Source: Desulfuromonas sp.
Lineage (GTDB): Bacteria > Desulfobacterota > Desulfuromonadia > Desulfuromonadales > UBA2294
Assembly (NCBI GenBank): GCA_002869615.1
Contig: PKUH01000091.1
Location: 1-64,000, forward strand
Direction: 5' to 3'
DNA length: 64,000 nt
How positions within the stretch are numbered: the first letter of the stretch is position 1; each line of letters opens with the position of its first letter. Under the pieces are notes generated by a model. It saw nothing but the letters and a program-made list of their open reading frames with translations. It did not search any database and was not told where the DNA came from. The position numbers were made by a program, and so were the translations under genes. Below are positions 50,730-51,800 of this stretch, one piece after another.

Positions 50730-51800
50730 ATGAATAGTGACAAACAAAAGATGATGGCAGAAACAGACAGGGAGCTTCTCGGCACTCTCCAGCGCCGGAA
50801 TGAAGAATTATCGACCCTGGTCGAAATCGGCAAGGCGTTGACTTCGACCCTGAGTCGTGAGGATGTCCTCAACGTTGTCATGGAGAAGGTCAGTCTTCTG
50901 CTCCATTCGAAGCTCTGGTCACTGCTTCTTGTTGATGAAAAAACCGGCGAAATGACCTTTGAGATCGCGGTCTCACCGGCCGCCGAGAGGTTGAAGGGGC
51001 TACGCCTGAAGAAGGGCGAAGGGATTGCCGGCTGGGTCGCCGAACATGGCGAGCCGCTGCTGATTCCGAATGTCAATGAAGACAGCCGCTTTTCTTCCCA
51101 GGTCGACGAAGCGACCTCCTACAGCACCAAATCAATCATCTGCGTTCCCCTGAAAAGCAAAAACCGGATTCTCGGCGTCATCGAGCTGATCAATTCCGAA
51201 GAGGAAGGGACCTTTACCAAAAATGATCTGCCGATTCTGACAACGATTTCTGATTATGTTGCCATTGCCATCGAGAACGCTCTCTACTTTGAGAAGATCA
51301 ATGAACTGATTATCACCGATGATCTGACCGAGCTTTATAATTCACGCCATTTCAACGAACTGATCGATTACGAACTTGAACGGGCCCGACGTTACGGTAC
51401 CTTCCTCTCTATCGTTTTTTTCGATCTCGACTACTTCAAAACGGTCAACGATACCCACGGCCATCTTGTCGGCAGCCGTATTCTCAGTGAAATCGGAGCC
51501 CTGGTTAAAAAGTACACCCGTCGCGTCAATCTCGCAGCCCGTTACGGCGGCGATGAATTTGTCATGCTTCTCCCCAACACCGACAAGGAGGGAGCAATCA
51601 AGATGGCCGGCGATCTTCTCGATATCATCCGCGAGAACCCCTTCAAGGCCGACGATGAAACCCCGATCAACCTGACGGCCAGTTTTGGTGTAGCAACCTT
51701 CCCGGTTGACGCCGACGATAAAAACGAACTGGTCCGCCTCGCCGACAAGGCTATGTACGCGGTCAAGGAAAATGGTCGCAATGGCGTTGCCGGCGCCTGA
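50730..51800 (+). CDS. GAF-GGDEF nucleotidyl cyclase with Hypr (cyclic AMP-GMP) signature
   Basis: A 356-residue soluble protein. A coiled coil starts it, then a GAF domain (about 25-175: TLVEIGKALTSTLSRED through SDYVAIAIENALYFE). The catalytic domain has RYGGDEF (GGDEF at 273-277) and the substrate loop DLDYFKTVNDTHGHLVGS. In ordinary diguanylate cyclases the final residue of the GHxxGD motif is Asp; here it is Ser249. That change defines Hypr enzymes, such as GacA of Geobacter, that make 3',3'-cyclic GMP-AMP. The allosteric I-site RXXD is RRVN, so product inhibition by c-di-GMP is probably weakened. GacA has a receiver, not a GAF, so the input differs. Start context is weak; ATG 50730 is used. 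Confidence 0.9.
   Translation: MNSDKQKMMAETDRELLGTLQRRNEELSTLVEIGKALTSTLSREDVLNVVMEKVSLLLHSKLWSLLLVDEKTGEMTFEIAVSPAAERLKGLRLKKGEGIAGWVAEHGEPLLIPNVNEDSRFSSQVDEATSYSTKSIICVPLKSKNRILGVIELINSEEEGTFTKNDLPILTTISDYVAIAIENALYFEKINELIITDDLTELYNSRHFNELIDYELERARRYGTFLSIVFFDLDYFKTVNDTHGHLVGSRILSEIGALVKKYTRRVNLAARYGGDEFVMLLPNTDKEGAIKMAGDLLDIIRENPFKADDETPINLTASFGVATFPVDADDKNELVRLADKAMYAVKENGRNGVAGA

Follow-up and report, generated by a model that had tools for sequence, protein, structure and literature searches.

A GAF-linked GGDEF protein of Desulfuromonas sp. predicted to be a Hypr cyclic AMP-GMP synthase of a second type

One gene in the 64,000-nucleotide stretch of Desulfuromonas sp. DNA analysed here (the window) encodes a GGDEF protein with serine at the position that governs base selectivity, where canonical enzymes have aspartate. 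This raises the question of whether the protein belongs with the Hypr enzymes, and if so, whether it is simply the GacA of this organism or something distinct. Cyclic AMP-GMP (cGAMP) synthesis has already been described for GacA, GSU1937 and Bd0367 (PMC6456294, PMC8835794, PMC9140294), but few Hypr enzymes have been studied experimentally, and our literature search, whose scope did not extend to the 2016 Hypr survey, found no biochemical data on the window protein or its clade and no description of a GAF-only Hypr enzyme. Our contention is that the window protein is probably a soluble, dimeric GAF-GGDEF enzyme that would convert ATP and GTP mainly to 3',3'-cyclic AMP-GMP, with some c-di-GMP. 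Sequence comparison gives good support for placing it among the Hypr enzymes as a second type under GAF control, while its product, ligand and readout are predictions.

Hypr signatures of the GGDEF domain

The features of the gene are collected in Table 1. A domain search returned no receiver match in the protein. The start codon is uncertain, as Met codons at 50751 and 50754 match the N-termini of orthologues at least as well as M1 at 50730.

Table 1. Features of the GAF-GGDEF gene, in window coordinates
Feature	Position	Strand	Size, score or basis
GAF-GGDEF protein, predicted Hypr (cyclic AMP-GMP synthase)	50730..51800	+	356 aa
GAF domain, residues 43-181	50856..51272	+	E 4e-19
GGDEF catalytic domain, residues 196-351	51315..51782	+	E 1e-41
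Ser205, equivalent to cross-dimer Tyr304 of G. metallireducens GacA	51342..51344	+	6d9m alignment; S/A/G in aligned orthologues
Asn240, equivalent to nucleobase-contacting Asn339 of GacA	51447..51449	+	alignment and GacA paper
Ser249, equivalent to selectivity Ser348 of GacA; codon AGC	51474..51476	+	Asp in canonical enzymes
Degenerate allosteric I-site R264-R-V-N267 (expected RxxD)	51519..51530	+	sequence, orthologue alignment
GGDEF motif, residues 273-277	51546..51560	+	Asp form, as required with Ser348

Among solved structures the GGDEF domain is best matched by that of Geobacter metallireducens GacA (PDB 6d9m, E 2e-42), and the alignment runs without gaps through both loops, so that Ser249, closing the catalytic loop N240-DTHGHLVG-S249, falls on Ser348 (GHLVGS) and Ser205 falls on Tyr304. 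The selectivity position corresponds to Asp344 in PleD and to Ser348 in GacA, and this serine touches the Watson-Crick face of the nucleobase (PMC6456294). In natural enzymes with Ser or Thr at 348, GGDE[F/Y] is the only form of the motif, its central residue being Asp and not Glu; cGAMP is the main product of Hypr enzymes that have Tyr, Ser, Ala or Gln at 304, whereas two with Arg304 make more c-di-GMP (PMC6456294). By alignment to 6d9m the window protein has all three Hypr features: Ser249, GGDEF and a residue other than Arg (Ser) at 205. The first-pass annotation had placed Ser249 at the base-selectivity position and had read the allosteric RXXD as RRVN; the gap-free alignment confirms the one and the sequence the other. 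It had not mentioned residue 205, a second Hypr signature that is Ser here and Arg in canonical cyclases. On the precedent of the GacA structure and mutants, Ser249 would accept either purine. Ser205, in replacing Arg, would lift the guanine bias exerted across the dimer; the GGDEF motif would hold Mg and Glu276 would act as general base.

There are 17 GGDEF matches in the genome, and GHxxGS combined with an intact GGDEF motif occurs only in the window protein and in the GacA orthologue (L010, G000:C1:8843-10222, 459 aa), which consists of a receiver (REC 6-115) and a GGDEF domain. A further GGDEF-like sequence (L016, G000:C80:20851-21156) has the selectivity serine, but its motif reads GGDYY and not GGDEF; the catalytic Glu is missing and the domain is probably inactive.

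Orthologues with the GAF-GGDEF layout are present in 21 of the 58 genomes of the order, the window's own genome included. Ser249 and GGDEF do not vary among those that were aligned, and position 205 is occupied by Ser, Ala or Gly but in no case by Arg, the residue that most of the canonical paralogues compared have there. The one exception to Ser249 is L046b, the second copy of a tandem GAF-Hypr duplicate in genome G009 (L046 locus, G009:C94:6414-7406), which reads GHETGN and so has Asn, neither Ser nor Asp. A sequencing error or misalignment at Ser249 was considered and rejected, the AGC codon being two changes from an Asp codon; because the serine is kept in orthologues 49-81% identical to the window protein while Hypr proteins make up only 0.17% of GGDEF domains (PMC9140294), chance is excluded as well. 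The I-site is less uniform, with Asn in the two nearest relatives of the window protein, Cys in five f13 genomes and RxxD retained in most others. As the window protein's I-site has lost its Asp, feedback by c-di-GMP is probably weak, unlike in GacA. Gene neighbourhood is kept only within the genus (FMN reductase and zinc-type ABC genes in L035) and is gone in remoter relatives.

Two branches of serine-bearing domains

A maximum-likelihood tree of GGDEF domains (81 rows) places all the serine-bearing domains sampled, together with L046b, in one clade apart from the canonical ones (support 96/87). This makes a single origin of the serine-bearing domains likely, given a limited sample of canonical domains, many of them on long branches. 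The clade splits into two groups, and the GAF-Hypr and GacA types therefore look like the products of an old duplication. One, a GAF-Hypr group of 26 (97/93), holds the window protein along with three f5 proteins whose GAF is poor and a single Acidobacteriota protein; G. metallireducens GacA and L010 lie in the other (97/91), sister to the GAF clade. It follows that the window gene is not GacA itself: L010 is the genome's orthologue, and the window protein, which has no receiver, belongs to the sister clade. It is better described as a receiver-less sister paralogue of GacA with a conserved GAF domain. The Hypr class proposed in the first-pass annotation is backed by Ser249, residue 205, the GGDEF motif, the serine clade shared with GacA and the presence of GEMM-Ib riboswitches in the genome, the product itself being read from sequence.

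The same annotation had contrasted the GAF input of the window protein with the receiver-linked GacA, and this needs to be amended. In GacA-type proteins the middle region aligns over 63 columns with a GAF profile built from the GAF-Hypr proteins (hhalign probability 93), and the molecule name of 6d9m contains 'GAF domain-containing', so that GacA consists of a receiver, a divergent GAF and a GGDEF domain. The contrast comes down to the missing receiver and to a GAF that is intact where that of GacA is divergent. In sum, GacA (GSU1658 / Gmet_1914, 6d9m) and the window protein share Ser at 348, a residue other than Arg at 304, GGDEF, membership of the serine clade and a GAF-type domain ahead of the GGDEF domain; GacA differs in its N-terminal receiver, its divergent GAF-like middle and its intact RxxD, where the window protein has no receiver, a clear GAF, RRVN and a place in the separate sister clade.

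Other known or related enzymes resemble the window protein in part. Two Corallococcus proteins (L066, L067) and one from an Acidobacteriota MAG (L064) have the same GAF-GGDEF layout, GHLVGS and GGDEF, with Ala at 205 and 48% identity, but the Corallococcus proteins, unlike the window protein, join the GacA side of the tree (96/86, on a long branch). They may correspond to MXAN2643 of M. xanthus, which we take to be one of the Gac proteins. The length of MXAN2643 is given as about 365 aa, printed with an apparent typing error (PMC4877007). GSU1937, the second Hypr enzyme of G. sulfurreducens, is likewise a second serine-bearing GGDEF protein beside GacA and contributes cyclic AMP-GMP, but it is membrane-bound, with HAMP and GGDDF, where the window protein looks soluble, is linked to GAF and has GGDEF (PMC8835794). 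Bd0367 of Bdellovibrio has the same selectivity Ser, and its S214D mutant becomes a c-di-GMP synthase; it differs in an I-site reported as conserved (R260) and in its input architecture (PMC9140294). The window protein represents a second branch, conserved alongside GacA within one order; its input differs, its feedback site is degenerate, and the genomes concerned contain predicted receptors of c-di-GMP as well as of cyclic AMP-GMP. Should it be no more than another Hypr enzyme, a known pathway gains one member.

Input, product and readout

The GAF domain may bind a small molecule, for which a cyclic mononucleotide is a candidate, and thereby set the geometry of the dimer. Its nearest solved structure is 5w10 (E 2e-36), which we identify with the GAF domain of Lcd1 from Leptospira, a protein with the same GAF-GGDEF order. 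The next matches are PDE5, CyaB2, PDE10 and PDE2, with some unrelated GAFs interspersed; these four bind cyclic nucleotides, although any ranking of solved GAFs is biased towards those that have been crystallised. Lcd1 is described, in the title of a reference, as a cAMP-dependent diguanylate cyclase, whereas the window protein has the Hypr serine. The genome also encodes four class III nucleotide cyclases. Against this, the NKFDE motif of cyclic-nucleotide-binding GAFs (PMC4411481) is reduced to N, F and D, which are all invariant in the clade; E is replaced by Leu, and K, which varies across the GAF-Hypr clade, is Ser (Arg in the 5w10 sequence). A cyclic-mononucleotide input is therefore possible, and the more specific proposal, that the enzyme starts to make cyclic AMP-GMP once its GAF is occupied by cAMP or cGMP, much as cAMP would act on Lcd1 to judge from that title, seems to us rather unlikely; it refines our preferred explanation and does not exclude it. 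A class III cyclase gene (L183, G000:C1:13547-14059) shares its contig with the GacA orthologue, some 3.3 kb away.

With regard to readout, Rfam finds no RNA families in the 64-kb window, in agreement with the first-pass annotation, which had seen no cGAMP riboswitch there and had proposed a genome-wide search for GEMM-Ib. That search returns 16 GEMM-I elements. Position 20, read as the base two before CAAA in each element (which we take to be position 20 of Vc2), is A in seven, G in eight and C in one. Since seven A20 elements lie elsewhere in the genome, their absence from the window is uninformative. The genes that follow these elements (L019, L022, L026, L028, L029, L030, L032) include those for a multihaem c-type cytochrome, a response regulator, a pyridine-nucleotide/Fe-S oxidoreductase (Fe-S/flavin), a TPR protein, a spore-coat-U (pilin-like) protein and a DUF11 protein, a set that resembles known Geobacter regulons. 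A20 is the base of GEMM-Ib, the cyclic AMP-GMP type, and a change from A20 to G switches selectivity from cGAMP to c-di-GMP (PMC6456294). The product of the window enzyme would add to the pool made by the GacA orthologue, and the GEMM-Ib elements before the cytochrome, oxidoreductase, TPR, spore-coat-U and response regulator genes may read it, although GacA alone may account for them.

A survey of the order does not make GEMM-Ib a specific partner of the GAF-Hypr proteins. An exact pattern was run over the 58 genomes; it recovers six of the seven A20 elements of the window's genome and misses variant aptamers, and only matches with a P1b stem were counted. By these counts GEMM-Ib occurs in 12 of 21 genomes with a GAF-Hypr protein and in 20 of the 37 that lack one (Fisher p = 1, kinship among the genomes being ignored), which means that the riboswitches by themselves do not tie the window enzyme to cyclic AMP-GMP. 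This lack of association, together with the eight G20 (c-di-GMP type) elements in the genome, would suit an active but promiscuous GGDEF enzyme whose main cellular product is c-di-GMP or a mixture, and which feeds c-di-GMP rather than cyclic AMP-GMP signalling. In vitro, Hypr enzymes show promiscuity and also produce c-di-GMP, so that sequence does not tell with certainty which product dominates in the cell, and the two tested with Arg304 favour c-di-GMP (PMC6456294). Residue 205 of the window protein is Ser, however, and enzymes with Ser, Ala, Tyr or Gln there are reported as mostly cGAMP producers (PMC6456294); moreover, Ser249 and a residue other than Arg at 205 are conserved jointly across the clade, which is hard to explain under selection for GTP-only catalysis. 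We regard this alternative as unlikely. Far less credible still is a catalytically dead GGDEF domain acting as a nucleotide receptor. Degenerate GGDEF receptors are known and the I-site here is degenerate, but a receptor would be expected to retain the I-site instead, and the window protein retains the catalytic residues Asn240, Asp275 and Glu276, which are invariant across the aligned clade.

Returning to cyclic AMP-GMP synthesis as the preferred reading, a GAF-Hypr protein is the sole clear Hypr match in each of the four f18 genomes (one of these, G041, gave an additional weak hit to the pattern). Three of the four gave no GEMM-I match and the fourth has two, both G20; with no GEMM-Ib found, any product there must be read by other means. 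Genomes that have the GAF branch only and lack GEMM-Ib are a natural place to search for an undescribed cyclic AMP-GMP receptor. Extended to its limit, this suggests a widespread receiver-less GAF-Hypr subfamily, gated by cyclic mononucleotides, free of c-di-GMP feedback and making cyclic AMP-GMP that is read out by something other than GEMM-Ib, with one family of the order running cyclic AMP-GMP signalling without any GEMM-Ib at all; we offer this as speculation that is quite improbable as a whole.

Several GEMM-I elements depart from the usual arrangement. Two aptamers stand in tandem before one exported-protein gene (L025, 30194-30272, and L028, 30313-30391, both on the + strand of G000:C1), the first with G20 and the second with A20, and both with a swapped C21-G46 pair; they could possibly form a two-signal gate for c-di-GMP and cyclic AMP-GMP. 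The single C20 element (L024, G000:C81:12038-12115, - strand) carries neither the c-di-GMP nor the cyclic AMP-GMP base. Finally, three GEMM-I variants in other genomes of the survey (L152, L158 and L159, in G035 and G043) have the binding loop TACTAAACC or TACTCAACC, in which T replaces C22.
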